From Cladochytrium replicatum (lineage: Eukaryota > Chytridiomycota > Chytridiomycetes > Cladochytriales > Cladochytriaceae): a DNA stretch of 59,409 nt. The DNA lies in assembly GCA_025526935.1 (NCBI GenBank), contig JAHLKD010000153.1, forward strand, positions 1 to 59,409, read 5' to 3'. Positions 22,353 through 56,528 of this stretch are shown piece by piece. Each line of letters opens with the position of its first letter. Positions within the stretch are counted from its first letter, which is position 1. The notes under the pieces are model-generated. The model was not told the origin of the DNA and searched no databases. It saw nothing but the letters and a program-made list of their open reading frames with translations. The position numbers were made by a program, and so were the translations under genes.

Positions 22353-22789
22353 GTAGAATTTTGTCGTAGGCAGGTAAGATCAGATAAGAGGTACTTGTTC
22401 AATATATTGGAAGCTTAAGACTCACACCTTTTATAGGTTCTCCCATTCCCAACAAAGCCTCCCTTAATTTGTCCTTGCCACGTCAGCAGCGGCGCTCTCC
22501 TTCCTCCTTTGGTAAGTCCCCTTCAAGTTTGCTGGTGATCCGGAATTTTCTGGAACGCTGGCTTTTGAAGTTTTCGTCGAAGAACATGAAGCCGAAATAG
22601 AAACAGGAATGAAACTTTTGGATAATAACAAAGCTAGCGTCGTGGGTTAAACCACAAGCCATTCAACATAATGTCGCAAGTTCGATTCCGAGGATCAACA
22701 ATAATCCTGTTATTATCCTCAGCTGAACTTTTTCTTTTGAAAGTAAAAACAAAGAAGGAAAACTTTTATGAACGAAACAACACTCAACA
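22352..22789 (-). repeat. Copia-B 5' LTR
   Basis: 438 bp, same ends as the 3' LTR, with the TATA box at 22427-22436 (minus strand). Transcription would start here and run leftwards through gag-pol. Confidence 0.95.
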
Positions 22790-24463: not shown

Positions 24464-25350
24464 TTGTTCTTTCTGTCCACGCGGACACTTTCCAAGAAGA
24501 CGCAATATAAGTTTTGTATGTATCAAACAATTTTGCATCACAACGGACATCGAGGCATGTATTTTCTGTCCACCCGGACACTTTCTCAACTCATTGACGT
24601 ACTTCAGTTATCTCTACCCAATACAACTAACCTCTCTATCAATGTTACTAGCAATAAGATTCTGTCCAACCGGACACTTTCTTAACTCATTGACGGTACT
24701 TGAGTGATCTCTATCAAGTACAACTAACATCTCTATCAATGTTACTAGCAATAAAATTATGTCCACCCGGACACTTTCTCAACTCATTGACGGTACTTCA
24801 GTGATCTCTATCAAGTACAGCTAACCTCTCTATCAATGTTACTAGCAATAAGATTCTGTCCACCCGGACACTTTCTTAACTCATTGACGGTACTTGAGTG
24901 ATCTCTATCAAGTACAAACTAACATCTCTATCAATGTTACTAGCAATAAGATTCTGTCCACCCGGACACTTTCTCAACTCATTGACGTACTTCAGTTATC
25001 TCTACCCAATACAGCTAACCTCTCTATCAATGTTACTAGCAATACGATTCTGTCCACCCGGACACTTTCTCAACTCATTGACGTACTTCAGTTATCTCTA
25101 CCCAATACAGCTAACCTCTCTATCAATGTTACTAGCAATAGGATTCTGTCCACCCGGACACTTTCTCAACTCATTGACGTACTTCAGTTATCTCTACCCA
25201 GTACAACTAACCTCTATCAATGTTACTAGCAATACGATTCTGTCCACCCGGACACTTTCCAAGAAGTCACAACGGAAGTTCTGTAACAAACAATTTCTAC
25301 CACGACAGACCTCGAGAGCTGTGCTTTCTGTGCACCTGGACATTAGAGTC
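24464..25350 (+). repeat. Array of the ~97-bp hAT repeat, forward orientation
   Basis: Seven complete units of 95-98 bp, each with a core CTGTCCACCCGGACACTTTC (near 24570, 24667, 24763, 24861, 24959, 25055, 25151). Longer variant units bracket them on either side (about 24478 and 25246) and share a TCCAAGAAG extension. The core holds GTCC/GGAC half-sites. The array ends about 50 bp before the transposase start. Confidence 0.92.
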
Positions 25351-25379
25351 GGTAACGTTCCAGCCACACCACAGCAAAA

Positions 25380-27815: not shown

Positions 27816-27859
27816 ATATAAATTGTTGTTTAGACTGTTCATCTGTTGAAGTACCGTCC

Positions 27860-35026: not shown

Positions 35027-37642
35027 ATGGCGTCTTCAACCTATGTGATTAAGAGGGGCTACGCCCAAGTTAAGGAAGATGGCTTCAAAAGTTTCATCTG
35101 GTCGAAAAGATGGATGCTACTCAGAGAGCAGATCTTGACATTTCATCGGAACGAGGTGAGGGCGTCGCACCATTTAGTTGACAGGCAGCTTAACGCACTC
35201 AAAAGAACACATACCAAGCGCTGGTTGTTCTGTTCTTGAAGGAAGTGGAGGCTGTCAACCGTTCAGAAGTAAAGGAAAACACTTTCGAAATCCAAATGAA
35301 AGACGGAAAGACTTACTACATCGCCTGCAAAAGCGATGAAGAAGTTTATTCATGGATGGATGAGATTTATCAGGTAGAAAATTATTTGCGACGCCGAGAA
35401 ATTGTTATAACACAATTTGTGTCGAAGCGCTCACCTCTTGGTATTTCAACCCCAACCAACTTCGTTCACAAAGTCCATGTCGGGTTTGACCCTATCACAG
35501 GACTTTTCTCGGTACGTCACATTGCTGCATGGTTATTTTCTACACATCCTCGAATTTTTTGCAAAGGGTCTTCCTGGAGATTGGAGGTCGCTTCTTGAGT
35601 CGTCAAATATCTCCAAGGAAGAAATGAGCAAAAACCCTCAAGCTGTGCTGGATGTTCTCGAATTTTACACGGAGAACATGAAGAGCCAGCAGCAGGATAT
35701 GATTTCACCACCTCCCGCACCGAGACGGCCACAGCAAAATCCCGACATGTCTCCGTCTCCCTACAGATCTGAGAATGGCTTGAGGACACCGCCCATGAAT
35801 GATCCTTACGGCCAATCAATGGTTAGTTATAACCACGTACGGGGGGGATTCAGCTATTAATTGTAAATCAGCCTAGGAACTCTCCTCCACAGTCCACACG
35901 TCCTTCAATGTCACAGCGTCCGCCGGAGCGTCCTGTGGCCGGTCCACCAATGATCCCACCATTGCGGGCTCGCGGTGATTCGTTAGTAAGTCCAGGACAT
36001 ACAATGATGCATGAGTTAGGGTTGAATGCCTGATTGCACAATAGATGCCTGGTGGTGCGAAAGTTCAGGAGTACAGGTTGAATTATCCAAGTCGTAAGTG
36101 TAATTTACCTTTTGCTTGACGAGGCTGATAAGTTTTACCCAAGGTTCCGAAGTAGACGAAAGGGACTACGGAGAGCGAGACCGATCTGATCGCGATAGAG
36201 ATCGATACGAACGGGACCGGATTGATCGGGAGCGTGACGATCGTGACCGAACGGAGCGTGACAGAGAACAACTACGCGAGCGAGAGAGAGCTGTTGAACG
36301 TGAACGTGAGCGTGAGCGTGAACGTCAGGAGCGTGAACGCGAGCGAGAGAGGGAGCGCGCTGAGCGTGAGGCGCGTGCTGCAGCTGTTGCCGAGAGGGAG
36401 CAACTTGAGAAGGAACGAGGCAGGGAGCGAGACAATGAGAGAGAGCGCGGGAGGGAACGCGAGAAGGAAAACGTGGAGTTGAAGGAGGAGCCGGCCCCGT
36501 CCACTCCGAAGAAAAAGAAGGACCCCCGACTATCGACCATGACGGATGCGCAGGTTATGGACAAGCTTCGATCTGTCGTATCGAAGGGCGATCCAACAAC
36601 TATGTACACTAAAATTAAGAAAGTTGGACAAGGGTCAGTTCAAGGAAGTTCTGTTCTTGTTTCTTTTAACTCAACTCCATTTTTAGTGCATCGGGATCGG
36701 TTTATTTTGCAAAGGACAATCGCAATGGTGAACAGGTGGCGATTAAGCAGATGGACCTTGCTGCACAGCCTCGAAAGGAACTCATCGTCAACGAAATTCT
36801 GATCATGAAAGAGTCGCAGCATCCCAATATTGTCAATTTCAGAGACGCTTATCTGCTTCGTGGAGATCTTTGGATCGTGATGGAGTATATGGAGGCGGGT
36901 GCTCTGACGGATATCATAGACAACAACACCATGAACGAGAGCCAGATCGCTGCTGTATGTCAAGAAGTATGGAAATTCGGAAAAGGAGATGAATTTAGTA
37001 ACTCACATAACGTACATTTAGGCCGTCAGAGGACTTCATCACTTGCATTCGCGTGACATCATTCATCGTGACATCAAAAGTGACAATGTACTGCTGAATG
37101 CTGATGGCCACGTCAAAATCAGTAAGTTAGTGAAATTATTATAGCGACAGCTATTAGCTAATTACACGATGTTTTCGTTCAGCTGACTTCGGTTTCTGTG
37201 CAAAGTTGACCGCGGATAGAGGCAAGCGCGCAACGATGGTCGGAACGCCATACTGGATGGCTCCCGAAGTCGTGAAGCAGAAGGAATACGGCCCACGTGT
37301 CGACGTTTGGTCGCTTGGGATCATGGCGATTGAAATGATTGAGGGCGAGCCTCCGTATCTGGAGGAAGAACCCCTGAAAGCCCTTTACTTGATCGCTACC
37401 AATGGAACTCCCACACTGAAGAATCCTGAGAAACTGAGTGGTGTTTTCAAAAACTTCTTAGGGCGCTGTTTGGAGGTGGATGTGAACAAGAGGGCGTCTA
37501 CTGAGGAATTGTTGACGGTAAGCTGTTTCCTCTATTCTCTCGGCGCATTTCTCATGAATGTCCTCTGCAGCATCCGTTCTTGAAGCTTGCAGCTCCACAT
37601 ACGGCCCTTACACCCTTGGTCAAGCGGGCTCGAAAGGGCTGA
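35027..37642 (+). CDS. PAK-family protein kinase, PH-CRIB-kinase (Cla4-type), copy 1
   Basis: Eleven exons: 35027-35155, 35206-35373, 35428-35511, 35567-35821, 35872-35985, 36045-36093, 36144-36633, 36687-36966, 37022-37121, 37183-37517, 37571-37642; 2,076 nt, 691 residues, all GT...AG. An N-terminal PH domain (1-99; [17 protein letters not shown]) would bind phosphoinositides. The CRIB motif [16 protein letters not shown] (about 104-119) binds GTP-Cdc42/Rac. A Ser/Pro linker is followed by a Glu/Arg-rich helix-like stretch (about 272-385), then the kinase: Gly loop GQGASGSV (428-435), K450, [10 protein letters not shown] with D540, DFG (D558), activation Thr574 in [13 protein letters not shown]. 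This is the architecture of fungal Cla4 kinases, which act at the cortex in polarity and septin organisation. The exon pattern is shared with the genes at 44365-47261 and 47439-50293. Confidence 0.95.
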
Positions 37643-38138
37643 GTTGATCATTGCTTCCATATTTCTATCAAGCACTCTTCTTGCCCCCCACATGTGCGAT
37701 TGTGTGGAGCATGTTTATCATCCCTTTCTCAGTGCTCTCTGATGGAGCCTTTTCTTTTGGTTGGAACTCTCATTTTTCTTTTCGGCTAAATATTCGAAAC
37801 ATTAGTTAAAAAGATTTTTGCAAATCAAACACTCGTTTCTTCATTGAAGAATAGAAGACACAATGCTGAAGCAGTGGATGAGGTGGGGAAGGGACAAATT
37901 GGGACAAAGTGAAGCTCAACGGTGCACTTAGCACCATGAGCTCGCCCACAGCATAGAAACAAGTGAATTGGGCACATCCCAAGTCTATAACAGAGGTACC
38001 GTTGGAATATTTTGGAAAACTTTACAACCCTGAATAATATATAATTCCCAAATAATCGAAACTGAAGCCGGAGTTTCACTTACGGCAACAACCAAGAAAA
38101 ATCGAACAAATTGCCGGCCAAGAGAACTAGAATAACGT
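37643..38138. other. Intergenic region between kinase copy 1 and a kinase relic
   Basis: 3' region of the first kinase gene and of the converging relic. No coding sequence or repeats were recognised. Confidence 0.5.
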
Positions 38139-38395
38139 TCATGCCTTTTCAACTCTTTTCACGAGAGCCGCCAGATCGCTTAAAGGCACGGAGAGTCCGA
38201 AAAAAGGATGCTAGAGTCGTGACTCGTTCAACCAGTCTGAACTAACTTCAAACGATGCCAATTTTCTCACCGAAAGGAGTCATCAGCCGACGGACGCTTG
38301 CTAACGCTAACCTCCAAGCATCTTGCAAGAAAGTTCTTGACTACTGGCCTGAGCTTTTCAGGGTTCGTAAGTGCCGGGTGCCGTTTGTGACGATA
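38139..38395 (-). pseudogene. 3' relic of a fourth PAK kinase gene
   Basis: The minus strand retains the last exon, 38210-38139, exactly 72 nt as in the three intact genes, ending with TGA and encoding HPFFGLSVPLSDLAALVKR. It is preceded by an intron ending CTAG and by a partial exon 10 (about 38395-38279) with KNFLARCLEVSVSKRPSADD, matching [17 protein letters not shown]. The partial exon has a shifted frame further upstream (LRTLKSSGQ for LKNPEKLSG) and stops where the gypsy element begins. It is closest in feel to copy 2 (44365-47261), which has the same orientation. Confidence 0.88.
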
Positions 38396-41180
38396 CCCAA
38401 CAACCTCAGCCAACTATGGAAGCGTACATTCTCGCGCTCGAAAAAGTTATCTCCGAACTTTAAAACACAAGATTGCGACCTCTTCCACGGTTAAGATCCA
38501 GGGTCCCGAATCTTTCTCCGGTCAACGAAACAAGAATCGACTCTTCTTGACGCAGATCGACGACAAGTTCGCCGCGGAACCGTTACGGTACCCTACGGAC
38601 GAAATCAAGATCATTGCGGTTAAAGCTTGGACTATTGGGAATGCCCGCAATTGGATTACTCTTACTGTGAACAACGACGCAACACAAGCTTTCGACTCTC
38701 ATGGATCATGCTTCGATACGAAATCTTGCATGTCTTTGGTGAAGATCATCGAAAGCTTAATGCTCAGCAAAAGCTTGAAACTCTCCGCCAGACTGGCTCA
38801 GCTTCTGCATATCTCTCCATATTCTCGAAACTCGCCGCCGAATCTGGATACAACGAGGACACTCTGTACCGGCTATTCAAAGCTGGGTTAAAAGACAAAG
38901 TTCGCGAATTACTGATGCCCTTCCCTCGCTCTCACTTCAAAATATCTTGCTGACTACCAAGCTCCTGCTGTTGAAATCGATCAAGATTTGTTTGACCATA
39001 GCAAGGGCAAAAAACCAACTCGCGATACGAATTCCAACTCCAGATCTCGACAGAATCCCCAATATTCTTCTTCTTCCGGCCGTTCTTTGATGGATTTAGA
39101 CAACATGCAAACTTCCCGAAAACTTACCGCTACTGAGCGCAAAGAACTCCGCAAAGCCGGCAAAAAATGCTTCTAGTGCCGCAAATCTGGTCATCTCGTC
39201 CACGAATGCCCTAAGCATCTAAAACGTCACAACGGTGATTCCTCTGGTATTTCAAAAACAGCTACAACCACAGCATCTTCTTTGTCATCGGGAAATGCGG
39301 AGTGCCAGTGAACGAGTCAGGCTCTCCAGTGCAAATCAAATCCGACGAATATATTCAGATTGGTGTTCTTTCCCTGCATCCCCAGAAACATTTTACTTTC
39401 ACTGTTACCTTTTTTCCCCAGAACTCTCAAACCAACAAACCTTGTTGCTTTCCTTGATACTGGCTGCACCGATTATCTTCTTCATCCTCAAATCGTTAAA
39501 AAACTTCTATTGAATCCTCAACCCACCGAATCTCCTCTCAACGTTCGACTTGGCGATGGCACCTATGTTACTAATCCTGTTGAGTTAGAAACTGAACCCC
39601 TTTTGCTTGCTTTTGGTACTCACTTGAGAAAAAGACTTTCCGCATTTTTGAATCAAAACACGATTTCATTCTCCCTCTCGCCTGGCTCGAAGAACATAAC
39701 CCGCAAATCAACTGGGTTACAAAGCAAATCTTCAACGGCGACTTCTGCCGTTTACGAACGCCATTCCACTCTCTTTTGCTACCGCTGTTCTTACGAAGGA
39801 CAATGCTTCAACGACCGTTCTGGTTGATGATCGTGGTGTCCCTCTGATTCTCGCCAACTTCTCTGATGTTTGCTATGAAGGACACACTTTCAGCAAATCC
39901 TACAGTTCCGGTACATCGTACCTACGATTACCCTGTCGATCTTGAACCAGGGAAACCTCTTCCTCCGTTTTCTCCCATCTACACTTTGAACGATCACGAA
40001 CATGAAGAGCTATGAAAGTATATTGATGATGCTCTCCGCCGTGGCTGGATTCAACCCTCGACTTCTCTGATGGCTGCCCCTATTTCCTTCGTCCTGAAAG
40101 AGAATGGTGGAATTTGGCCCGCTGTTGACTATCGCCGTTTAAATACAATAGCGATCAAGAATCAGTATCCCATACCTTGTTTTCTGATATGGTTAACTGT
40201 TTATGCCTGTTGGTTCAGACAGCTCGATCTCCCAAATGCCTACCATCTTCTTCGCATCCGTCAAGGCGATGAGTGGAAAACCGCCTTCCGCTGTCGTTTT
40301 TGGTTATTCGAGTACCTTGTACTTCCTTATGGACTCACCAACGCTCCCGCTGCATTCCAGCACTTCATGAACAATATCTTGAAAGATCACCTTGACCACT
40401 GCATTGTTTTTTATTTAGACAACATCCTGATCTACTCCGAAGATTTCGATGCTTCATGACGATGGCCCTTATCATCCTGTTGGCTTTCATTCTCATCAGT
40501 TCACTCCTGCCGAAGTCAACTACGATACGCATGATCACAAATAGAGGCCCTCATTTCCAGTCAAAATGACTGGAAACGCTTCTTCAAACTTCTTGGTGTG
40601 AAACGAGCACTCTCTACTGCGTTCCACCCTCAGACTGATGGACAATCCAAGAACCTGAATAAAACTGTTCAGCAATATCTCCTATGTTTTGCAAGCGCTC
40701 AACCTAACCTCTGGTCAATATCTTCCTCTTGCTGCATTAGCTTACAAAAAATCCGTCAATGCGACTACTGGCTTCTTCCGTTCTTTGCAATTTATGTCGT
40801 AATCTCTCGCTTGATCCTGAACTTCCCATGATCTCCTTTGTTCCTAAAGCCGAAGCGAAAGCTGTAGCAAAAGCTGAAGCAAAAGCCAAACAGATCAAGG
40901 CTATCCACGAGGAACTTCTTGCTCAGATCCACAAGAGTCCCAGAAACTTTACGCCGATCAACACCGAGGTCCCGCTCCAAAATACGAAATCGAAAATAAA
41001 GTCTGGCTCATTTCAACCAATGTAAAGACCGCCGCAAACAAGAAGTTAGCTGACAAGAAACTCAGACCTTTCAAGATCATCGAAAAGATCGACGATCTCA
41101 CTTTGAAGCTCGACTTATTCAACCCTGAAGATTCATCCTGTTTTCCCCTTCAGTCTCCTCGAACCTGCACCACTAAGGAG
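38396..41180 (+). pseudogene. Ty3/gypsy retrotransposon relic
   Basis: Degenerate gag-pol. Gag starts at about 38416 (MEAYILALEKVISEL, then a stop) and continues with SAYLSIFSKLAAESGYNEDT. A CCHC knuckle at about 39165-39215 reads KKCF-stop-CRKSGHLVHEC, with an amber codon inside it. The protease DTGC motif is at about 39455. The reverse transcriptase at about 40070-40459 has AVDYRRLN, FRQLDLPNAYHLLRI and YLDN in place of YLDD. Then come RNase H scraps (VGFHSHQFTPAEVNYDTHDH, about 40480) and late integrase (STAFHPQTDGQSKNLN, about 40618), with the intervening parts deleted. It ends near VFP...LLEP at about 41165. No LTR was identified on either side. The gypsy order (RT, RNase H, integrase) is clear. 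Confidence 0.92.
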
Positions 41181-41708
41181 GCAAGAGATTGGTCAACACA
41201 TGTCACGTGACAGAAATGATCATTACCTTTTTGGATAGTTTCAGCACTCGAAACACTTTGTTTTACTTTGTTGTCTTTTGTTTTCTTACCGTTCTGCAAT
41301 TTTTCTTATTTGGAAATATTTGCTTTTGAGAAATGTTTTAAGAATGTTTTACTTGATTACTTACCTTTTGTTTCTTCCGCATTCCACTTCTTCTTTATAA
41401 GTTCGAATGTTTTCACTTGTTCTGTTTAGTTTCTGCTATTTCAATATTTACTGCGATATTTCTTCACAACTTACCTTCTTGAACCATCTCGACACAAACG
41501 CGAGTGCACCGATCTGTCCACGTGATGAAATATCCCTTTCAAGTTTTGTGTGAACTGGCGAGGGCAGATGGTGCCAAATGAGCACCCCATCTGCTCTGGG
41601 GCAGTTCCCCCTTTCAACACCTCCATCCCTTCGATTCACTTATCCAGCATTTCACCCACAAGGCGGTGCTCTGGCGCTTCAGGGGTCACCGGGTAAGCAT
41701 CCCGTTCC
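41181..41708. other. Unassigned stretch
   Basis: T-rich DNA after the gypsy relic. No coding sequence, LTR or other feature was recognised. Confidence 0.4.
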
Positions 41709-43624
41709 CTAAACATTGTCCTGTTCTATCTCTGCCGCTGATGCTCTGGGATCAAAGTCTCTTTCCGCGTGCTTGAGCCCGGGGATGGCAGTGGGGATAT
41801 CTCCAGGCTCCCACTTCATCTCGGCATTCAGAAGCCTAAGGATTGCGACAATGTCCCCCAGAACAGCCATCACAGTGGATGAAAGCAAAAACCACACATT
41901 GCAATAATCTTCACAATTGTTGTTTCCCAACTCCCCTTTTGTACCCTCCATATCCCTGTACCTTCTGTAACTGCACCCCAACATCAAAGTTTGGTTGGCT
42001 GATTCGCTGAGTCTAATTTCAAGCTCCTGCTTGCGAAGATCAAGTTCCGATATTTTGAGGTCAAGCTCGGTTTTGCGCAATTTTTGTCCCAGCGATGCTC
42101 CTCACTCTCCATTGGCTGCTTGTCAACTTCTATCCTTGCAGAAGCTGCAGCCAATTCATCCTGCGCCTCCGCTTGAACTCTGATGTGGCGCTAACCTTAT
42201 GACACTTAGCAGACCTTGCTGATGCTGTAGTAGAACTCGTCTCAGATACCGTCTTCTTCTTTTCTACTGCCAGCGTAGTTGGTGTCGCGTCTTCATCGCC
42301 ATCGCCATCCTCTGATTCCGAACTGCGCACTTCATCTTCCTTGTCGTCAACCACATCAGGAGAGTTTGTGCCAAAAAGAAGAGCTTTGGCATCTTCCCCA
42401 CTAACTTCTGGAGGCGGGCGCACCAGCACAATCTCCCATTATTGCATCCAAGCTGTCAAAATCGGGAACTTTGTTGCAAATTTCTGATCCACAATGTATA
42501 CCCTCTTTTGTGATTGTCCTCCGTGAGCCTGTTTCCTGTCTGCTCCAGCATTTCACAGTGTGTAAAAACCAAGGGCTTCTCCTGGCAGCGGTAGGGCGTC
42601 TTTAGCTGTACTGTAGCTAGCACAACAGCTCCAGGTTCTGTCTCTTGGCCCAGTACCTGTTCTCCCAGGTGCGTATATGCCTAATACTCCGACAGGCTGT
42701 ACACTACACCCAAGCTGGTCAGGCAACCAGGGAATGCTGTGGTCAAAGACATTGGTCACATCAACTCCTATATTCAAGTGAACAGTGCGTGTGGGCATAC
42801 CTGTGGTCAAAGACATTGGTCACATCAACTCAAATGACCAAGCCACACCACATTCCCCACTAAATGCCAAGATCACTCCACACAGGACCTGCCAAACATG
42901 GATATAAATACATGAAATACAAGTCCATAAATAAGAATGAAGTGGGATTGACAAAAAAACTCTCAGGTCAAAGAGAAAAAAGACAACCCAAAGGATAACC
43001 CATATAGCAAACAGTCTGATATGCTAGTTTTTAACACAGTGATACTTCTCTGTTCAAATGCTTGACTTTTGACTTCACTTGGTTGAAAGTGTGGATGATA
43101 CTTGTCGTGGCACGGAACTTCTCCAAAAGCTCCTCAATCACCTTGTCTTGCTCCTCCCTTCAACCTTTGTTGTTCCCTTCCTTTTTGTTCCAGCGTTTCG
43201 GAAGTTTGTGTACCATGACACTCCGTTATTGGTAAATTCGCCCATGAGGCCAAGTGGAGCATCCCGCTCTTTGCTTGACCAAGTAAGGTATGTCAGCGAT
43301 GTTTGAGGCTGTAGGAGTTTGGTATGGCGTTCTCCCTGGGACAGAACCTTGTGGTGATTGTGCTGGGAGTCTTCCAAACAGTGCTGGACGAGTACCAGAG
43401 AGTACTGGGGTGGTTGGACAGCCTGATTGCATCGTATTCAGATAGATGGGATTGGTTTGATTGGGGTGGATAACTGAAGAGTCAGCTGGTGGCAGTGAAG
43501 TTTCGCTCATCTGATCGATGAGCGAGTTGCAAGGGCCCTTTTGGGACCCCTCATCCATGGGTCGCTGATAAATTTTATTGGTCGAAAAATTCAGCAAACC
43601 CAGATGGGGGTACTTGAATACCAA
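41709..43624 (-). pseudogene. Possible Myb/SANT-type, transposon-associated gene relic
   Basis: Minus-strand pieces: 43624-43226 (Pro/Ser-rich, MDEGSQKGPCNSLIDQM); EICNKVPDFDSLDAIMGD at about 42470-42425; an acidic segment 42429-42130 (SSESEDGDGDEDATP) followed by KRRRR; then 42080-41709 with ELDLKISELDLRKQELEI, a Leu/Glu coiled coil. This order (acidic, basic, ELDLR-type coiled coil, with a CP-x-DAI-GD segment) resembles fungal transposon-linked proteins with Myb/SANT-like DNA-binding domains, but I could not see the SANT motif itself. The pieces are in different frames. A 23-bp segment is repeated at about 42750 and 42813. Confidence 0.35.
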
Positions 43625-44364
43625 TGACTAAGTGAAAATTTACTGATCATATTCAAGTGTCGTAAATAGATGGTTTTTCTAACTTCACTAGATTTATTGA
43701 GAAAGACTGTTCTCCTTTTAAGAGCAGAAACGGCAAAGGAAACATCTAGAAAGTAGGAAAAGAGAAAAGGAAAAGAAACTTTTAACTCTCCAAATCAGGT
43801 AAACAATCAAGAAAATGAATGATTCAGTGGCAGATGAACGGTTCAGGTGTAAACGACATCAAGTTTTGAGAAATTTTTCACGATCTTGAAGCCAATGCTA
43901 TCTCAAAAGACCAATACGCATTCCATGGCGAAGGCAATTGCGGAATGCCTTTTGGTATTCTAACTCCAGCTGAGATAACTTTTAGGAGTTAGAACGATGC
44001 CATTTAATGACTTAACGTGGGGAAAGGAAATAAAGCATTTGGAGACACTATATTATTACCAATGAACGAACAATAGGCAATTTTTGAAACTAAACGATAC
44101 CAGAAGACACCACACAGTAACAGATTGGTGAGAAACTAAAGGCTGAAAAACGAACAAACAAAGTCACAACCAATAACGGTGCGCTTTCGAAAAGTTTGTC
44201 CGCTAAAAGTTTGCAGAAAAAGCCAGCGCATAATAGACATTTGATTGGATGAATATTCAATTGATCTAATTGGGAGATTCACTGCGAATCGATGCTGTGG
44301 AAAATGTAGTCAAAGGAAAGAGGGATACAGAGACTGAAAATTGGGACACTACTGCACATTTTTC
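43625..44364. other. Intergenic region downstream of kinase copy 2
   Basis: AT-rich DNA with no recognised coding sequence. Presumably holds the 3' UTR of the minus-strand kinase gene. Confidence 0.45.
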
Positions 44365-47261
44365 TTAAGCCTTTTGAACTCGTTTCACAAGGGCTGAAAG
44401 ACCGCTCGCCTGTACCGAAAGTCGGAACAGAGGGTGCTAGGGGTCACCAAAGTTAGAACCAGACATTTCTCGAATAAAGTATTACTCACCGATAGCAGTT
44501 CGTCAGCAGACGCTCGCTTGGGAACGTCTACCTCCAAGCACCTTCCAAGAAAGTTTTTGAATACCGTGCTGAGCTTCTCAGGATTCTTCAGTGTTGGCGT
44601 GCCGTTCGTTACGATAAGGTAAAGCGCTTTTAGGGGCTCTTCGTCAAAGTATGGTGGCTCGCTCTCGACCATCTCGATTGCCATGATTCCAAGCGACCAC
44701 ACGTCGACTTTCGGACCATAATCTTTCTGCTTGACAACCTCGGGCGCCATCCAGAATGGCGTACCGACCATTGTCGCACGCTTGCCGCGCTCGGGCGTGA
44801 GCTTGGCACAGTAGCCAAAGTCGGCTGTCCAGAGCCTTAAGTATTATTTCAATGATGTGTGAATTGAAAACTCACTGATCTTAACATTGCCAGAGATGTC
44901 GAGCAGGACGTTGTCGGACTTGATATCACGATGAATAATTTGTCGAGAGTGAAGATGCGAAAGACCTTTGAGCGTCTGAAAGTAGTTAAACCAATGGCAA
45001 TCAACATAATTCATGGACGATACCTCTTGGCAAATAGTGGCAATCTGTCCGTCGGTCATTGTCGTCTTTTCGATGATCTCGTTCAGTGGACCGGCTTCCA
45101 TAAGCTCCATAACGATCCACAAGTCCCCACGCATTAAGAAAGAATCCTTGAAGTTGACAATGTTGGGATGTTGCGACTCCTTCATAATCAGAATTTCGTT
45201 CACGATAAGGTCTTTGCGGGGCTGGGCTGCGAGGTCCATCAACTTAATTGCAACACGCTCCGAACTTCGGTTGTCTCTGGCGACGTACACGGTTCCCGAC
45301 GCTCTGTAGAACCAAGGAATATTCAAACGGACATGTAAAATGAAATCAAGCTACCAACCCTTGTCCGATCTTCTTGACTTTGGTGTACAGTGTTGTTGGG
45401 TCGGCCATGTTTACAATAGATCGAAGCTTTTCCATGATCTGCTCCTGTGGCAACGTCGAAAGACGAACCTCTTTCGGTGACGCCTTTTTGGCCGCAGCCT
45501 CCGCCTCTGCGAGCTTCTTCTTGGCTGCCGCTTCTTTCTCCTCCTTCTCTCGTTTTTCCTTCTCCCGTTGCTCCTTTTCTCTCTGCTCTTTTTCTCGAAG
45601 CTCCTTTTCTCGTTGTTCCTTTTCTATCTGTTCTCGCTCCTTCTGCTCCCGTTCGCGCTGCTCTTTTTCTCTGAGCTCCCTTTCCCTTTCCCTCTCTCGC
45701 TCACGTTCTTTTTCACGCTCGACTTCTTTCGATCTCTCCTTCTCCCGCTCAATTTCTCGCAATCTCTCGCGGTCACGCTCCAACTCCATCTCAAGCTCCC
45801 ATTCCCTCTCCACACGTTCGCGCTCCAGACGCTCCAGTTCAAGCCTTTGGCGCTCTTTCTCGGCAAGATCGCGCCTTTCGCGTTCGATTTGCTCGCGTTC
45901 AAGTCTGTCGCGCTCGATCTGGTCGCGTTCTGCGCGTTCCCGCTGCTCACGCCGCTCCCGTTCGTAGATTTCACGCTGTTTGCGCTCGTACTGCTCTCGT
46001 TCTGCGCGCTCGCGTTGCACACGCCGGTCGCGTTCACGCTCGAGTTTGTCGCGCTCCATCCGCTCGCGCTCGATACGGTCCAGACGGTCGCGCTCTCGAG
46101 ACGCCTCCATCAAATCAGTACCTAATTAAGTAGGAGTTTAGCAGACGCAAAATGTAACACGAAAACTAGTAGCAGTACGTGATATGTGTGCAATGCGAGG
46201 ATCACGGGGATCCGGCTGGACTTTGGCCGGAACGGCAGGAGCCTGAAATGTCATTTAATCCCAAATCCAATTTACGCGAGATGGTCACATACCAGAGAGT
46301 CGCGACGGGCGCCGACTGCAGGAAGTGTGCTCTGAGGAGGTGGCCTGGTGAGGGCAGGTGGTCTCTGAGGGGCATATCGGCCCTGCAATTTCAAATTAAG
46401 TTCAGCGAAAGAAATAACAAAGCTGATTTTCCCACATTTCCGTATCCAGGCGAAGTAGGGGGACTGCGGTAAGGATCTTCAGATGAGGTTCTTGGTGGTG
46501 GTTCGATAGACATGATTCCAGGGGATGGGGCACCAGTAGGACGCTTTGGTGCTGGCATTATTGCGTCGTCCCGCGATCGGGACAAGGTCGCAGTGTAGAA
46601 CTCTAGAACATCAAGAACTGCCTGGGGATTTTTGGACATTTCTTCTTTAGAAATGTTGGACCGTTCCAAAAGATTCGACCAGTCTTTGGGCATGCCCTAG
46701 TGCAGAGTCTCAGATAACATCGGCAAGATTTCCAATCGTTCACTTACAGTAAATAGGCCAGTGATGCCGTCAAAACCAACATGAACTTTGTGCACAAAGT
46801 TTGTAGGAGTTGAAATGCCACGTGGAGAACGCTGGAGGAACAAAACGAGCAGTGAGCGGAAGGATGTAAGCCATGACCACCATCCCACCTTGTAAATCTC
46901 GTCCATCCAGGAGTAAAGGTCGTCATCGCTTCTACAGGCGACATAGTAGCACTTTCCGTCCTTCAGCAAAATTTCAAAGCAGTTTTCTTTGACCTCTGAG
47001 CGAGTAACGTTCTCGATATCGTTCAGGACAATGACGGCAGAAGCCTGAGTACTGGTCTATGGGAAGCGAGTACAATGATGAGCTGAGGAAGAACTGAGAG
47101 CATGAAAGCGACTTCGACCAGTAATTCTTTTGCCGGCGGTGTATTACCTCACTCTTGTGCAAGGTAAGCACCTGCTCGCGGAGGACAAGCCAGCGCCGTG
47201 ACCAGAAAGTCATGATGCCCTCTTCCTTGACCTGGGCATCGCCCCGCTTGACGTACGCCAT
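44365..47261 (-). CDS. PAK-family protein kinase, PH-CRIB-kinase (Cla4-type), copy 2
   Basis: Exons on the minus strand: 47261-47148, 47053-46889, 46831-46748, 46696-46436, 46382-46293, 46242-46179, 46121-45359, 45303-45024, 44975-44876, 44824-44490, 44436-44365; 2,328 nt, 775 residues. PH domain about 1-93 (the most diverged of the three: [19 protein letters not shown]); [20 protein letters not shown] (about 98-113); a long Glu/Arg-rich region in exon 7 (763 nt, against 490 and 691 in the paralogs). The kinase has Gly loop GQGASGTV, K534, HRDIKSDN with D624, DFGY (D642), Thr658 and GTPFWMAPE. All catalytic residues are kept. The first ATG used (47261) aligns with the other copies; an in-frame Met lies 22 codons upstream. 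It is divergent from copy 3 across 177 bp. Confidence 0.94.
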
Positions 47262-47438
47262 CAATTGCAACTGGAGAGTCGAGAGTCGAGTTTGGCGACC
47301 TGAGCCGTGGAGGCGCGACGGAAGCAAAGCGTTTATTGGGCAGGTGTGTGGCGGACAGTGGCTTAGTGATCAGGCTGTCTAGCGGCTGTGCTAGCATTTG
47401 CTAGAAATCGTCTAGCAATCCGATTCTGGCATCACACA
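47262..47438. promoter_or_regulatory. Bidirectional promoter between kinase copies 2 and 3
   Basis: Only 177 bp separate the two divergent start codons, so core promoters and 5' leaders must share this segment. No clear TATA box is seen. Co-regulation is plausible but inferred. Confidence 0.6.
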
Positions 47439-50293
47439 ATGTCGCAGCACTCCAGTGTGGTGAAGAGCGGGTATGCTCAGGTCAAGGAGGATGGCCTCAA
47501 GGGCTTCATGTGGTCGAAGCGTTGGATTCTCTTGCGGGACCAGATACTCACCTTCCACAGGAACGAGGTGGGTTTGTGCAATGCCACCACCCCGCACACC
47601 AAACTGACCAACTTACCTCAAAAGAGCACCTATCAAGCACTAAATGTCTTGTTTCTCAAAGAAGTCGAAGGCGTTAGCCGCTCCGAAGTGAAAGAAAACA
47701 CCTTCGAATTGCAGATGAAAGATGGCAAGACATTCTACGTTGCTTGCAAAAGCGATGACGAGGTTTACTCATGGATGGACGAAATCTATCAGGTGAGCGG
47801 AAAGAGTGGTAAGCATCACACATGGCATTTGTTCTGATGCGCTATTGCTCCGCTCCAGCGCTCGCCATTGGGCATTTCCACCCCAACAAATTTCGTCCAC
47901 AAAGTGCATGTTGGTTTCGATTCTATCACGGGCCTCTTTACGGTATGTTGTTCTAACCAAGTGTCGGTCGCTTTGATATAACACTGAGACACAGGGGTTG
48001 CCCCAAGACTGGCGCTCGCTCCTTGAAAAGTCAAACATATCCAAAGAAGAAATGACAAAGAATCCTCAGGCAGTATTAGACGTTCTCGAGTTTTACACAG
48101 AGAACATGACCAGCCAACGAAACAACATGATTTCACCTCCGCCTAAAACTCCGACATCACCAAGCGTGTCATACGACTCGGCGTACAGCTCCGATGGATA
48201 CAGGAGCGATACGTACAGCCCTCCTTCTCCAGGAATGAATGTAAGGCATAAAATAATGATTCGCTATATAAAACAAATCACAAATTGTAACAGGGCCGTG
48301 TTTTTACCCCAAGACCCCCAGGAGCATCTCGCCCACATCCCCCGTCAGGTCTTCCCCAGGTTGGAATCCGAAGAGACTCCTTAGTATGATGTTTGTTGCA
48401 CGCACGTCTTCATCCTGTTAACTGGAGTCATCTCAAAGGCACCTTCTGTTGCTGCTGGAAGGACACAGGGAGAACATCCTGATCCTCGTGGGACATACAA
48501 TCAGATGGACTACCGTGATCCACGCGCAACCTACATGTCTCGTACGTGCGAATCGCACTCATCTCGTCTGTGCACTTATGTAATATCAAAACAGGGATGG
48601 ATCCATACGAGGAACGGATGGAGCGAGAACGAGCTGAGAGGATGGGACGTGAGCGTGTGGAACACGAGCGGTACGAGGGTGAACTCGTACAGCGAGAACG
48701 CGAACGCCTCGAGCGCGAACAACTGGAGGCAGAACGGCTGGAGCGTGCTGATCGCGAGCGGGAGAGATTAAACCGGATCGAACGCGAGAGGTTGGACGGC
48801 TCTGCACGGATCGAGCGCGAACGGCTCGAGCGGGAGCGGATGGAGCGGGAGAAGGCTGAGCGCGCTCGACAGGACCGTGAAAGAGTGGAGCGAGAGCGAG
48901 CTGAGAGGGAGCGTGTTGACAGGGAGCGCGCGAAAGAACGCGAGCATGAGCGTGCGTTGGAGAGGGAAACGACGGAGAGGGCGGAGAGGGAAGCCAGAGA
49001 GGCACGCGAGGCGAAAGAAAGGGAGAGGCAGAAAGAGCGGGAGAGGGAGAGGGAGAAGGAGAAGGAGCGAGAAAGGGAACGGGAGAGGGCGATCGCTGCA
49101 AACGGAGCTGGAAAGGATGACGGTGAAAACAAGGAGCTTGCGGCGATCGTGCCCAAAAAGAAGTCTGGGAAAGAGCCACGATTGTCGACGATGTCGGATT
49201 CTCAGATCATGGAGAAGCTGAGAGGCATTGTGAACAAGGCAGACCCAACAACTCTTTTCACAAAGGTCAAGAAGATCGGGCAAGGGTAAGTCTTACCTTC
49301 ACTTAATTTACGTCGTGTTCAATTTTACTTTATCAGAGCGTCAGGCACGGTTTATGTAGCGAAAGATAACCGCACTGATGAAAAAGTAGCCATCAAATTG
49401 ATGGACTTGTCCGCACAACCCCGAAAAGAGCTCATCGTCAACGAGATCTTGGTCATGAGGGAATCTCAGCACCCAAACATTGTCAACTTCAAGGATTCGT
49501 TCTTGCTCCGCGGCGATCTATGGATCGTGATGGAGCTGATGGAAGCTGGCCCGCTCAACGAAATTATTGACAACAACACAATTAACGAGGGTCAGATTGC
49601 TGCCATCTGCCATGAGGTACAGGAGTATCACTTAATATGTGGATAAAATGCTCACAGTGGATCTGGAAGTCCATTAAAGGTTTACACCACCTTCACTCAC
49701 GACATGTAATTCACCGAGATATTAAGAGTGATAATGTGCTTCTTAACGCAAACGGAAATGTCAAGATCAGTAAGTGGCCAAAAGAAGTCGTTTGCCATGT
49801 TCAGTTCTTCAACGCTCCTCTTTCTTGAATAGCGGACTTTGGGTTCTCTGCCAAACTCACTGTTGACCGTGGCAAACGCGCGACCATGGTTGGAACGCCT
49901 TACTGGATGGCACCGGAAGTGGTCAAACAGAAGGAGTACGGCGCGAAAGTCGACGTGTGGTCACTCGGTATCATGGCAATCGAGATGATTGAAGGGGAGC
50001 CACCGTACCTTGAGGAAGAGCCTCTGAAAGCGCTCTACTTGATCGCTACAAACGGTACGCCGACTTTGAAAAACCCCGAGAAACTCAGCGGAGCATTCAA
50101 GAACTTCTTGGGTAGATGCTTGGAGGTTGATGTTTCAAAGAGGGCGACGATGGAGGAGCTTTTGACGGTATGTTGACAACTTTCTCAAACATTCCAATTA
50201 ACAACGTACTCTATTTGGCAGCATCCATTCTTGAGGTTGGCTGTGCCATTGAGTGCGCTTGCACCATTGGTGAAACGAGCAAAGAAGGCTTGA
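47439..50293 (+). CDS. PAK-family protein kinase, PH-CRIB-kinase (Cla4-type), copy 3
   Basis: Exons: 47439-47567, 47625-47792, 47859-47942, 47995-48240, 48294-48383, 48439-48541, 48595-49285, 49337-49616, 49670-49769, 49833-50167, 50222-50293; 2,298 nt, 765 residues. PH domain about 1-99, very close to copy 1 ([19 protein letters not shown]). [20 protein letters not shown] (about 104-119). Pro/Ser linker, then a long Glu/Arg-rich segment (exon 7), then the kinase with GQGASGTV, K524, [10 protein letters not shown] with D614, DFGF (D632), Thr648 and GTPYWMAPE. Exons 1-3, 5 and 8-11 have the same lengths as copy 1, except that exon 5 matches copy 2. The start at 47439 aligns with copy 1; an upstream in-frame ATG at 47388 would add 17 residues. 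An active Cdc42/Rac effector kinase is predicted. Confidence 0.95.
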
Positions 50294-50584
50294 GCATGCT
50301 TTATACTTACAGTGATAGATTATGCGGTTGTGGTATAATGTCGGCTTTTCTCGGCTCGTATTTCCTTCCTTGCAGTGCGATGCTTGAAATTTTTTTGATT
50401 GTGATACTCCACCCAAGCAGCGTTGTTAAGGCCACAAAAATCAGTGGTCTATCCCTGCTATGCTATCAATTATGTTTAGGAGCCCATTCATCTTGCATTT
50501 CCGCCCTCTTTTTGTAAAATTCGATTCTATTTGATGATTTGTAAGAGGCTTGGTTCGCGAAGCGACGCGTTCTTCTCCCCGCCA

Positions 50585-52113
50585 ATGGACAGATCAATTC
50601 CGGCGTCCACCCAAAACCGAATTTCAGCAGTCAATCCTGGTCAGCCACGAGTGACAAGAAGATCAAGCGCAGTGGCGGTAGCTGGAAATTCCAAACCTTT
50701 AAGAGTCGAAACTACGCAACCGCCCGCACCTAACAATGCTCCACAATCAGCACCACCAGTGATCGCGTCGGGTCGTATCGGTCCGGTCATGTATGCTCAT
50801 AATCCGTACGCTTACGTGTCCCCAGGCTTTGGGTTTATGTATCCGACCCCGACGACTGGACCGAGGTCCGCCCCTGCGATGATGCAAATGGGCGGAGGTG
50901 GTTGCATGGGTTTCGTTCCATTCGGCATGGGGGGGCAGCCTACTGGGATGATTCCGTACTACATCCCTCAGCGTGTTGAGTCTCTGATTTACGCACGGGC
51001 TCCGTCGGAAGATGTCTGTCGTGCACCAAAGAAGGGTACGGCGGCTGATACGCAGAGTTCAAAGGAAGATGTCGGCGCTGTTAGGGCTCGAGAACTGGGA
51101 CGCATGGATCTGGACGAACAGGGATCAAAGGCTTCCGGCAGTCAACAAGAAGAGGAGGGTGCCGCACGTGCTGCGGAGGAGCCGACTGTGCCGATTGGTG
51201 ATGCGGATGCGGAGGATAAGAAGGCTGGCTCGAGGCGCGACGAAGCCAGAGGCGACGGATCAAGACGTGTTCTAGCTCTTGCTTGTGATAAGGTACGCAG
51301 GGAAGGGGTTCGATAAAAATATCTTGATTATCGTATAAATCATGACCTGGGTTTCGTTCAAAGATTGTTTCCGCCGCAAAAGCGGTGGGATTTCTGACCA
51401 ATGATTTCAAAGCGGGCTTGGAAAAGGGTGGGCCAAGTGGAGTGGCAGAAAGGGGTGCAGCATTCCGAGATGTTGGGATCAAAGCACTTGAAGTTTACCA
51501 GCGAGTTCAGCAGCTTAGGCAGATGTGTCTGCTGCAGCAGGTATTCCAAGTCTCTAAAACGTGGTATACAGAAGATGCTGATCACATTCTTTAGTGGAAC
51601 GAGGCTGCCGGGAAGCAAAAAGAAGTGAGAAAGCGGAAGAGGAGTAGCGATCACGAGAAAGCAGATGATGAAGGATGCCTCAACACAAAGACAGGGGGTG
51701 GCAATGGTCATCTGATGGCGGGCGACGCGGCAGCCATGCCATGTACTTTTGGATTCGCACCTGGTTTAGGAGGGACTCCGTTTATGGGCTACCTCCCACT
51801 TACGGCCGCTCATCCTCATGGAGTTTACCCCACTGTGCCAGGGATGGTCAACCCTCAGGACTTGGTTGTTTCAAACCCAATGGCAATCCCTGTCCTTATG
51901 AGCAGAGCTGCAGCGCCAGTGGTGACGGGGTCGGAAGGAAGCAGCGAGAAACGGAACTATGGTGAAGCTCCAGTCGAAGAATCAGGAAAATTGAAAGACG
52001 GGGAGAAGGGACGCGACAATGATAAAGATAAAACCAAACGAAACGACACCGGGAGGCATGGGGACGAATCTATGGTTGCCACGATCCTCCTTGAGCTGAC
52101 TTCGCGAGACTAG
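50585..52113 (+). CDS. Protein of unknown function, Pro/Gly-rich with a conserved-looking middle segment
   Basis: Three exons (50585-51292, 51364-51540, 51595-52113) join in frame with GT...AG introns to give 467 residues. Residues 1-235: low complexity, with MYAHNPYAYVSPGFGFMYP and GMGGQPTGMIPYY, then acidic/Ala-rich. Residues 237-295 (exon 2) look folded and helical: VGFLTNDFKAGLEKGGPSG and IKALEVYQRVQQLRQMCLLQ. Then a basic motif RKRKR, likely a nuclear signal, another Pro/Gly/Met-rich part (GFAPGLGGTPFMGYLPL) and a charged C terminus. I do not recognise the family; a nuclear or RNA-associated role would fit the composition but is a guess. The ATG at 50585 is the second in-frame Met of the region; one at 50531 would add 18 residues. 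Same strand as its neighbours, no shared function evident. Confidence 0.75.
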
Positions 52114-52599
52114 TAGCAGCCTTGCTGAGAAGCGCTTTTTGGAACAATTCTGAAGCTTAAGAGCTAGAGATTCCTTTTTCATCCGTTTTGCATCCGGACC
52201 TTTCTTCACACTGTTGTGTGGATCGTTTTGCCAAATATAAATGGGACCATTTTAATAACTGTACGTCCATAACGCAGGTGAGTGCCTCTACGATGGACAG
52301 CGATAGGGCACCCTAATAAGCGACGTTGTTTTGATCTTTCGCACGAAAATTCCGGCACCTCTGGCGAGGTAGGAGCAGATCCTCCGACGAGGCAATTTGA
52401 CAAGTGCGAGATATCTGAACAAAAATACTAGCACCACCAGCGCGACATGGTCTGTCGCAAAGCTCGAGAGACCATCACGTCGAGGGCAGAAAAGAACAAA
52501 ATGGAAAGTGGAAGAAAGGACAAGAAGAAGGCTTAGGCACAGAGACAGTTTTAAAAGGAACACCAACAGACGCCACACGCGAAGTTGACGAATATTCAG
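52114..52599. other. Intergenic region upstream of the CyP40 gene
   Basis: 3' region of the preceding gene and promoter/5' leader of the cyclophilin gene. Purine-rich DNA (about 52490-52550) precedes the start codon. No further features were recognised. Confidence 0.5.
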
Positions 52600-54143
52600 A
52601 TGGCAGCCATCCACGACTCCTCGGTGAGGTAAGACCAGCTGGTGAACCTATCGGGATCACGGTATTCAACGTAGTGTTTATCGCAGCAACCCTTCAAACC
52701 CGCTATGCTTCTTCGACTTGGTGCAGGGGGACAGGCCTCTGGGCCGTATTGTTATGGAGATCTTTGCAGATGCGGTGCCAAAAACTGCTGAGAACTTCCG
52801 TGCGCTTTGCACTGGCGAAATCACCACTGAAGCTGGTCTGCATTTACACTACAAGGGATCAATCTTTCACAGGGTAAGTCTGTCGATCGGAGGTGATTTG
52901 CAGTTCGATAACGCGTTCATTCTTCCAAGGTTATCAAAGGGTTCATGATCCAAGGAGGAGGTGAGCGTGATGGATGATCAGCGAAGGCACGTGGTTAACT
53001 TTGCTTTTGCTTTATCAGACTTTACCAACAGGAACGGTACTGGTGGTGTTAGTGTCTACGGTGAAAAGTTTGCCGATGAAGCTTTCATCTTCAAACACGA
53101 CAAACCTTTTCTATTGAGTATGGCGAATGCCGGGAAGAACACCAACGGCAGGTTAGTAGAAACAAATCATCCCCCATTATCGATGGCTTATTCTGCCTAT
53201 TGTAGCCAATTCTTTATTACCACCGTTCCCACACCGCATCTCGATAACAAGCACGTTATTTTCGGAAAGGTGTTGAAGGTAGACAGTTCTTTCTACTTTT
53301 CGGTGACGATTATTCACGCCTTCGGAATTCAGGGACAAAATGTTGTACGAAAGGTCGAACACACCGCGACCGACAGTGGAGACAGACCGCAGGTTGAAGT
53401 CACAATCGCCGATTGCGGACAACTTCCCGCGGGAGCCGACATAAATGCGGTTGATGTTCCTGCCGATGGCGACGCTTACATGGATTTCCCGGAGGATGAA
53501 CCAAGCCTTGAGAACGACGCTACCAAGGCTGATACGATTATCAAAATCGCGGGGCATTTAAAGGAGCTCGGAAACACCGCCTTTAAGTCCGCGAACGCCG
53601 GTGCTGGAACAGCCGATCCAGACTTCCGTGTCGCCGTTGAAAAGTATGAGAAGGCGGTTCGGTACGTGAACGAGATTCCGGACCCGTTGAATGACGCGGA
53701 CCTGTCGGCATCTCAGAAGAAGCAGCTCCTGTCGATCAAAGTGAGCAGTTTACTCAATCTATCGATGGTTAGTTATTTCTGCCTGCTCGGTTGGCAAGAA
53801 TCTGAAGCGAATCTCTGTTTAGTGCCATTTAAAGACCCAAAGCTGGGAATCCACTAAAAACACGGCTACCCAAGCATTGGACATCCTTAGCAGAATCGCT
53901 GCGAACGCAGACAAAGATGTTGCATCAAGCGCTACTGACGCTGACAGATGCAAAGCCTTGTTCAGGAGAGGACAAGCGTTCAGTCACTCCAACAGCCACG
54001 AGGAAGCACTGAAGGACATGGAGGAGGCGGCGAAGCTGTCTCCCGATGACAAGTTGATCAAGAGCTGGGTTGCAAAGATTGTTAAGGGAATCAAGGACAG
54101 GAAGGAGAAGGAACGGCAAGCATACGCTAAGATGTTCCAGTGA
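52600..54143 (+). CDS. CyP40-type peptidyl-prolyl isomerase with TPR domain (Hsp90 co-chaperone)
   Basis: Seven exons: 52600-52628, 52687-52873, 52931-52961, 53019-53151, 53206-53278, 53333-53767, 53823-54143; 1,209 nt, 402 residues. The cyclophilin domain (about 12-182) has [38 protein letters not shown] with the catalytic Arg, [20 protein letters not shown], and the family's HVIFGKV. The residue equal to Trp121 of human CyPA is His (PTPHLDNKH), as known for human CyP40, where it lowers cyclosporin affinity. The C-terminal half (about 220-390) is a TPR domain ([39 protein letters not shown]) that would dock the C terminus of Hsp90, followed by a basic charged tail ([15 protein letters not shown]). 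Length and domain order match the family (about 370 residues). The 29-nt first exon is supported by the frame [20 protein letters not shown]. Confidence 0.95.
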
Positions 54144-54902: not shown

Positions 54903-55039
54903 TCTACGGCTCGCACGGCTCCCCATGTGCTGCCAATTTACGTGTATTTTTACACTTGTATTTGGATTTTGCACCAGCGGGTGATATGTATTGGTTGGAC
55001 AATAAATACATATTATGAAGTTCAAAAAAAAAAAAAAAA

Positions 55040-55044
<5 letters not shown>
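54903..55044 (+). mobile_element. 5'-truncated LINE 3' end with poly(A)
   Basis: Matches the last ~140 bp of LINE-1 (23790-23927) including CACCAGCGGGTGATATGTAT, and ends in a 21-nt A run (55024-55044). A short 5'-truncated insertion is typical of target-primed reverse transcription. It lies 8 bp upstream of the tRNA-Phe gene and is directly joined to the next LINE. Confidence 0.9.

Positions 55045-55123
<79 letters not shown>
55045..55123 (+). repeat. (CT)n microsatellite at the LINE-2 5' end
   Basis: 79 bp of uninterrupted CT repeat immediately before the LINE ORF1. The LINE-1 copy has the same feature in the same place but only 25 bp long (13739-13763), so the tract is part of the element's 5' UTR and has expanded or contracted. 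Confidence 0.9.
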
Positions 55124-55129
<6 letters not shown>

Positions 55130-56528
55130 ATGCCGCCTCCCAGCGCTCCGCCTGCGCAGCCGCCCGCCGCGCCGCCCGCCGCACCCGCCTCAAAAATTTT
55201 CATCGCTTCTGGCCGTGCTCGCTCCCGTGCTCCCTCTGTGTCCCACCCTCGCGCCCCTCAGGAAAACATTCCTGACTCTCAGCCCAGCAACTTTGATGGA
55301 GAAAATTTTCTGTGGGCAGATGAAGTGAATTCTCCTCACGAATCACGTGACTGCCGATCACGTGACCAAGCATCATCCACTTCAGAACCGGCTCGAATTA
55401 GAGGAAGATCCCCCGCAAGTGTCGTTGATGTTCACATGAATGATACAGTCGAAATGTCACTTACCCTTGCTGATGCTGATCCCAAAGGGAAACGTCGAGC
55501 ATCAAAATCACCCCCTGACTCGCCGACCTGCCTCTCGTGCCAGGGTCGAGAAGAATGCCTCTGCAGCTGATCATGCTACCTCTCCCTTGCCTACTCCTCG
55601 TGACCGATTCTTGGATGCTCTGCATATGCTGGCCCCTGCTCAAACTTCTGGATCTCATCCATTAGTGATGTCTGCTTTCACTCATGCAATGCAATTTCTC
55701 CCAGTATTGGAACCAGAGACTGAGGCTGCCTTCTTTGCTGCATTGACTATTGCTGTAGTTCCGTTGGTTGAAACTATCAGCTGCCCTCCTGCTGCTGTCT
55801 CTGCCGTGCCTTCCTATGCTCAAGTTGCGAGTGCTAGCCGACCGCCACCTGCCCCTGCTACTCGCAATCCTGGGCCTTTCAGCACTGCAAAATTTGCCTC
55901 TCGTGCATCAAATGCTATTGTTCGTATTGAAGCTGCCGAAGCAGATGCTCAACCCGCCCTTTATCGCTCAGTGGTTGCTGGAGTGGACCCCCTATCTCGC
56001 AGATCACTACGGCCACCCAGATTGGTGATTGATTACCCGGCTGAGTCACCAATTTTGATCAATCCTCCTCAGCCTGTTCGTGATCGTGCTGCTGGTTTTG
56101 CTACTGTGAGGTTTAAGGAAATTAGTCGTCAGCCACTTAATCAGCTCCGCACTCTGATTAATCGAATTTCTGGAAACCCTCAATTTTCCCGTGACATTCG
56201 CCATATTAGTTTTATTGGGCGTAACACTGCTGAGTTTATTTGTACTTCTGACTGTGCTGACAAGCTCCGCAAGGACATTTTTCCAGGTGATGAGGTGCCC
56301 GTTGATCTTTTTGACCCTGGGCAGCTTCGTTCTGGGTCTGTTCAATCACTTGAGCAACGTCAAGTTGCTGTAGCAAAGGCTGTTCACAAAAGATTTGCTC
56401 ACCTCTTGCGAATTACTCATGATCCTGCAGTTTTTCATTATCTTCGTTCTAATCTTCCTGCTGCAGACTTTGAAGCTACTGTTTCTTTAGCCCGTTCTTC
56501 GCGTTCTGAACCTACATCTCGCAATTAA
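55130..56528 (+). pseudogene. LINE-2 ORF1 (one frameshift)
   Basis: Starts MPPPSAPPAQPPAAPPAAPA right after the CT tract. The first frame runs to 55570 and the second from 55440 to 56528; they are joined by a single shift near 55540-55560. The C-terminal third (IRHISFIGRNTAEFICTSDC; EQRQVAVAKAVHKRFAHLL) is conserved with LINE-1 and is probably the RNA-binding core. CLSCQGREECLC near the shift could be a Cys cluster. The stop TAA (56526-56528) overlaps the ORF2 ATG (56528-56530). Confidence 0.85.

Follow-up and report, generated by a model that had tools for sequence, protein, structure and literature searches.

Why should a chytrid carry several Cla4-type PAK kinase genes side by side, how many does its genome hold in all, and in what do their products differ? 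These questions are raised by contig C153 of the Cladochytrium replicatum assembly (50.5 Mb in 198 contigs), the whole of which, 59,409 bases long, is the window analysed here. Positions 35027-50293 hold three intact Cla4-type PH-CRIB-kinase genes, A (+), B (-) and C (+), together with a decayed B-like piece, D (-). We consider it very probable that the assignment to Cla4 is correct and that the genes descend from a tandem array which was later copied on the scale of the genome. The part most worth a bench test is a charged spacer between CRIB and kinase, the length of which is specific to each class of gene.

A, B and C share one architecture. Each has ten GT-AG introns of 48-91 bases in the same places and the same phases (0,0,0,0,0,1,2,0,1,0), the boundaries near exons 4-7 of A and 6-7 of B having been placed by eye on GT/AG, and in each the PH, PBD/CRIB and Pkinase families of Pfam all score over their curated cut-offs. 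An N-terminal PH domain (PF00169, 45.7-47.5 bits against a cut-off of 25.1) is followed directly by CRIB (PF00786, 81.8-86.2 bits), and the C-terminal kinase domain (PF00069) has its catalytic motifs intact in the alignment: the glycine loop, [15 protein letters not shown] and APE are all retained. Chance is excluded because of the E-values and the common gene structure. B and C stand head to head, with 178 bases between their start codons. A preliminary description of the locus had already reported three complete PH-CRIB-kinase genes and the 3' end of a fourth in the order +, (-), -, +, with conserved splice sites and all catalytic residues kept; the gene models, Pfam and tblastn of the relic agree with it on each of these points, coordinates included.

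The nearest PDB structures to the kinase domain of B, the only one searched, are those of PAK1-3. The CRIB segment of A, including the part after CRIB, aligns with PAK1 (1f3m_A) over 59 residues with an E-value of 1.7e-21, and the corresponding autoinhibitory segments of B and C are 87-92% identical to that of A; a predicted PAK1-like autoinhibitory segment adjoins CRIB. The reading of A, B and C as old paralogs is supported by a mutual amino acid identity of 64-71% and by synonymous sites that are saturated over the whole gene, which rules them out as alleles or assembly duplicates of one another, as the preliminary description had argued, and bears out the local duplication that it proposed. 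Its statement that the PH domain and linker have diverged holds for the linkers (45-49% identity) and for the PH of B (60-62% identical to those of A and C), not for the PH of A and C, which are 84% identical. In a kinase tree of eight rows with a Ste20-type outgroup, B groups with C, apart from A, with a support of 97.

A second cluster lies on contig C77, which carries open reading frames (ORFs) for A', B' and C' in mirrored order relative to C153 (intron 4 in the model of A', at 38 bases, may be wrong). Blastn aligns the two contigs at 80.1% DNA identity in A, 77.4% at the end of B and 78.7% across 45357-50294; the flank at 50.6-54.1 kb aligns with C77 62673-64619 as five pieces in order and one of 79 bases in the other orientation. 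A whole-genome CRIB search returned 17 matches, which represent the three genes on C153, the three on C77, two places on C34, two on C115 and one on C44. When the gene C protein minus its spacer (PH, CRIB and kinase) was used as query, a Cla4-type PH was found, among 91 of 292 candidates, only on C153 and C77. Within the limits of the assembly and these searches, the genome-wide count that the preliminary description had called for comes to a putative six intact Cla4-type genes.

The remaining CRIB places were rejected as Cla4 genes. Both on C34 and one on C115 are Ste20-type, with no Cla4 PH found there; the second on C115 is a fragment; that on C44 is WASP-like by eye, being proline-rich after CRIB. 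The Ste20-type models (the first on C34 and the first on C115) are doubtful upstream of the kinase and have no stop codon, and only their kinase parts entered the tree; models of the other C34 and C115 places and of C44 contained frameshifts or stops and were left aside. These Ste20-type PAKs form a tandem pair on C34 (354-360 kb), of which C115 (122-129 kb) keeps one member and a fragment, a history similar to that of the Cla4 cluster.

Between homeologs, synonymous divergence (dS; Nei-Gojobori with Jukes-Cantor correction) is 0.74 for A/A', 0.82 for B/B', computed with 14 spacer codons of B' left out, and 0.78 for C/C'. The ratio of nonsynonymous to synonymous divergence (dN/dS), another comparison between copies that had been suggested, could be obtained for these pairs, at 0.029, 0.039 and 0.044 over the whole gene and 0.008, 0.026 and 0.018 over the kinase domain, respectively. 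Such strong purifying selection fits retained, possibly distinct functions, without naming them, and does not show the specialisation proposed in the preliminary description. Homeolog introns are identical at 0.52-0.58 of alignment columns, against 0.48-0.49 for shuffled partners (one shuffle each); since the introns hardly align, the homeolog pairs are not alleles. Each Cla4-type gene is closest to its own homeolog; nothing therefore points to gene conversion within a cluster after the copying. Each of the six most likely works as a Cla4 PAK.

The three classes differ in the length of the run between CRIB and kinase, about three quarters of which is D, E, K or R. By one measure applied to all six proteins it is 121/121 residues long in A/A', 208/214 in B/B' and 173/178 in C/C'; a stricter measure gives 84/84, 208/200 (B' without 14 residues) and 111/116. 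The length of the spacer is thus class-specific and nearly equal in homeologs. Proline and glycine together number 0 in B and B' and 4-7 in the other four proteins, so that a long run rich in R/K and E/D and poor in P/G, of the single alpha-helix kind, is found in every one of them, at 121-214 residues. B has a 15-base, five-residue repeat and the A spacer has RD-repeats; the two Ste20-type models have, by eye, a P/A/S-rich stretch before the kinase instead. AlphaFold, run on single sequences, predicts exon 7 of B as one helix of 205 residues (mean predicted local distance difference test score, pLDDT, 84.8), with 15 of the first 20 ten-residue blocks at pLDDT 90 or above, and exon 7 of A as one helix of 101 residues (mean pLDDT 80.0). 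It is plausible from these models that the spacer is a single helix in A and B, and fully helical spacers would measure about 18, 26 and 31-32 nm in the A, C and B classes, respectively.

Two points limit the case for such a helix and for a leash. The pattern of opposite charges at i+3/i+4 lies only 1.3-2.9 standard deviations above shuffles in the six proteins (B' there without 14 residues), and the proposed leash draws on composition, length and single-sequence AlphaFold, which readily calls sequences of this kind helical. The main rival is that the spacer, far from being a helical leash, is disordered and of mixed charge and directs the kinase to condensates or to the nucleus. Arg-enriched mixed-charge domains are reported to steer proteins to membraneless organelles (PMC9324279), the RD-repeats of A would suit such a role, and nuclear entry is reported to be possible for yeast PAKs (PMC5412356). 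We regard this as rather unlikely, given the absence of proline and glycine from all 208 residues of the B run, its modelling as one helix largely at high pLDDT and the near-equal run lengths of homeologs. A coiled coil that dimerises the kinases, which the long predicted helices would also allow, is a distinctly improbable alternative: the five-residue repeat of B and a run that is about three quarters charged leave little hydrophobic seam (this was judged with no coiled-coil predictor applied).

If the spacer is a single helix, its length might set the reach of the kinase, a suggestion that we put forward tentatively. The fullest form of the idea is that the Cla4 kinases of this lineage acquired a charged helical leash in cis, with a different length in each of the three classes, and that tandem and genome duplication kept these lengths as a graded set, with the same PH-CRIB anchor serving targets at different distances from the membrane; as a whole this is an unlikely proposal. 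We know of no long charged helical spacer in yeast Cla4. The closest functional comparison is the INCENP leash of Aurora B, where the kinase is tethered by a long single helix whose length affects which substrates are phosphorylated: altering the length of the INCENP single alpha-helix is reported to have changed how Aurora B substrates, both near and far, were phosphorylated (PMC4571873). There the helix belongs to a partner protein of another kinase, whereas here it would lie in cis and is predicted only.

How the two clusters came to be can be judged from other genes of the same assembly. CCT profile matches fall at 17 loci, 12 of which were taken as six pairs (C2/C11, C99/C62, C24/C25, C81/C120, C6/C28 and C100/C142), with C60 and C20 taken as unpaired CCT genes and C70, C18 and C30 left out as putative HSP60 or other relatives. 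Every one of the six pairs aligns within the gene, and in five the alignment extends into kilobases of flank. Their dS, calculated from eight exon pairs open in both copies (a subset of such exons, with 79-370 codons per pair), is 0.75, 0.67, 0.73, 0.73, 0.73 and 1.21, and the values of the Cla4 pairs lie close to the 0.67-0.75 of five of these six. Septin-profile matches occupy 16 loci that resemble eight pairs, unaligned, although some may be other GTPases and the profile also matched below cut-off in 6 of 14 prokaryote controls. Chitin-synthase (Chitin_synth_1) and small-GTPase matches look partly paired, and proteasome matches, at 23 loci by our grouping and unaligned, look paired as well. 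A septin, a chitin-synthase and a small-GTPase match lie at about 783, 974 and 1382 kb on C1 and at about 115, 307 and 724 kb on C4, in equal order and on equal strands, with spacings of about 190 and 410 kb and collinear over about 600 kb; the small-GTPase matches are weak (E 5e-8 and 2e-8).

We infer from these genes that the duplication was probably genome-wide, and the doubled genes are best accounted for by duplication of the whole genome, or by hybridisation, with subsequent gene loss. Several observations count against it. The C2/C11 pair shows little similarity past the gene, one CCT pair stands out at a dS of 1.21, two of the eight CCT genes are single by the grouping of profile matches, MCM matches lie at eight loci with no obvious pair, and the flagellar gene RIB43A is present as a single locus. 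Synteny of the Cla4 clusters is seen on one side only, the other side being, in the parts read, rich in mobile elements. A whole-genome event would need heavy gene loss, or only part of the genome was duplicated; the MCM matches, which look single, therefore speak for gene loss or a partial event. Further to that, the duplication was judged inside this one assembly, with no outgroup genome.

One or many segmental duplications could have copied the cluster with no whole-genome event, which would suit the families that are unduplicated (part of CCT, MCM and RIB43A). We consider this quite unlikely, as the three Cla4 pairs and five of the six CCT pairs share a dS of 0.67-0.82 on many contigs, and the three matches on C1 and C4 are collinear over so long a stretch. 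That the assembly is of a diploid or dikaryon in which C77 and C153 represent diverged haplotypes of a single locus, with a true count of three Cla4 genes, is very improbable: two collinear copies in one assembly are what uncollapsed haplotypes also give, but dS is about 0.75-0.8, the introns are scarcely more alike than shuffled ones, MCM and RIB43A have one copy, and the relics on the two contigs keep different gene parts. A mixed culture of two species was rejected indirectly, MCM and RIB43A looking single.

Those relics also bear on the array as it was before its duplication. Relic D on C153 retains the 3' end of a B-like gene, an exon piece of it sharing 76 of 95 aligned bases with B, and tblastn confined to 37650-44360 of the window found no 5' part. 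On C77, tblastn finds fragments from the 5' half of a B-like gene, oriented as D should be, between B' and A' at 71477-72357 (+). B-like relics at matching places thus keep different parts on the two contigs, and we infer that both are one ancestral gene D, broken in both copies. Since a B-like relic stands at the matching place on both, the array is likely to have comprised four genes, A D B C, before it was copied. The stretch from A to B is 6.7 kb on C153 and that from A' to B' 2.2 kb on C77, and the retroelement-like ORF fragments found between relic D and gene B lie upstream of relic D in its own sense.

Under the tandem array and genome-scale copy, local duplication of a Cla4-type PAK gene in an ancestor would have produced the array A(+) D(-) B(-) C(+), which a genome-scale duplication, either of the whole genome or by hybridisation, would then have copied. 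In both descendants D would have decayed while A, B and C stayed, leaving six intact Cla4-type kinases. In PAK families the PH domain sits on membrane lipids, autoinhibition through CRIB is released by GTP-Cdc42/Rac, and the kinase acts on polarity and septin targets. By analogy, the PH domain of the six would hold the kinase at membrane lipids, CRIB and the autoinhibitory segment would keep it off until GTP-Cdc42/Rac binds, and the released kinase would act on polarity and septin targets, with the spacer, charged and predicted to be helical (121 residues in class A, 173-178 in C and 208-214 in B), perhaps setting its reach. Cdc42-like and septin-like genes are present in the genome. Cdc42-like matches on C10/C23, a further small-GTPase pair on C12/C46 and the septin matches on C1/C4 look paired; a Rac-like identity of the C12/C46 pair is a guess. 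Much of the polarity module may have been kept in duplicate.

Table 1. Features of the Cla4-type kinase cluster and its surroundings on contig C153 (window positions)
Feature	Position	Strand	Content	Homeolog	Basis
Gene A	35027..37642	+	11 exons, 689 residues, intact Cla4-type PH-CRIB-kinase	A', C77 75756-73127 (-)	gene model and Pfam
A exon 7	36144..36633	+	most of the R/E/D-rich spacer, run of 121 residues, up to start of kinase domain
Relic D	38142..38377	-	two final exons of a B-like kinase gene, reading frame decayed		tblastn against B, E 3e-13
Retroelement-like ORF fragments	38391..41210	+	between relic D and gene B		by eye from ORF list
Gene B	44365..47261	-	11 exons, 776 residues, intact Cla4-type PH-CRIB-kinase	B', C77 68000-70942 (+)	gene model and Pfam
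B exon 7	45359..46121	-	R/E-rich spacer, run of 208 residues without P or G, up to start of kinase domain
Gene C	47439..50293	+	11 exons, 765 residues, intact Cla4-type PH-CRIB-kinase	C', C77 67837-64933 (-)	gene model and Pfam
C exon 7	48595..49285	+	most of the R/E-rich spacer, run of 173 residues, up to start of kinase domain
Flank beside C	50480..54099	+	ORF with no Pfam match and ORF containing a partial cyclophilin domain	same place beside the C77 cluster

Much of the remaining window is taken up by mobile elements. A piece of a copia-type element (RVT_2) at 1-3870 is present in the genome in 25 or more near-full copies that are about 99% identical, and the element has therefore been recently active. 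A single copia-type ORF of 1306 residues with gag, integrase and reverse-transcriptase domains (Pfam) lies at 18462-22379 (-), and a hAT transposase ORF at 25356-27812 is flanked, within 24564-29418, by oppositely oriented tandem arrays of a 96-97 base unit. Amid these elements, a glycosyltransferase-like ORF with an EryCIII-like C-terminal domain is found at 8969-10336. The contig ends, at 54904-59409, in an element of 4.5 kb that carries an endonuclease domain (Exo_endo_phos of Pfam) and recurs at no fewer than 29 further places with 96-99% identity, two of them touching base 1 of C1 and C12; it may be associated with ends, or contigs may simply break in repeats.

Cla4 and Skm1 of Saccharomyces cerevisiae have the PH-CRIB-kinase order and are themselves a whole-genome-duplication pair. 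They belong to the same PAK family, with, to our knowledge, two genes in yeast against the six in two clusters here. Activation of the yeast kinases by Cdc42 is described in two papers (PMC8847673, PMC5412356). Beauveria bassiana likewise has Cla4 paralogs in one fungus, Cla4A and Cla4B, two genes against six here, one of which is reported to be functionally redundant (PMC11203800). Outside the fungi, Dictyostelium PAKc and the PH-domain PAKs of Entamoeba have PH, then CRIB, then kinase, the same domain order (PMC8847673). Cla4 paralogs in one fungus are thus already known, and the expansion is fairly ordinary in kind. In the open-access literature we found no paper on the Cla4 kinases of chytrids and, among titles and the starts of abstracts, no account of a single alpha-helix spacer in a PAK and no report of genome duplication in a flagellated fungus.

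Six Cla4-type PAKs, descended from a tandem array copied in a larger duplication, offer a clean natural experiment in the growth of a polarity kinase family. As the Cdc42-like and septin-like matches also look doubled, the partners of these kinases could be studied together with them. RIB43A points to flagella and Chitin_synth_1 to a fungus, and a genome duplication in a flagellated fungus would merit confirmation in itself. Should the spacer truly be helical and its length be of consequence, it would represent a new way to set the reach and autoinhibition of a PAK.

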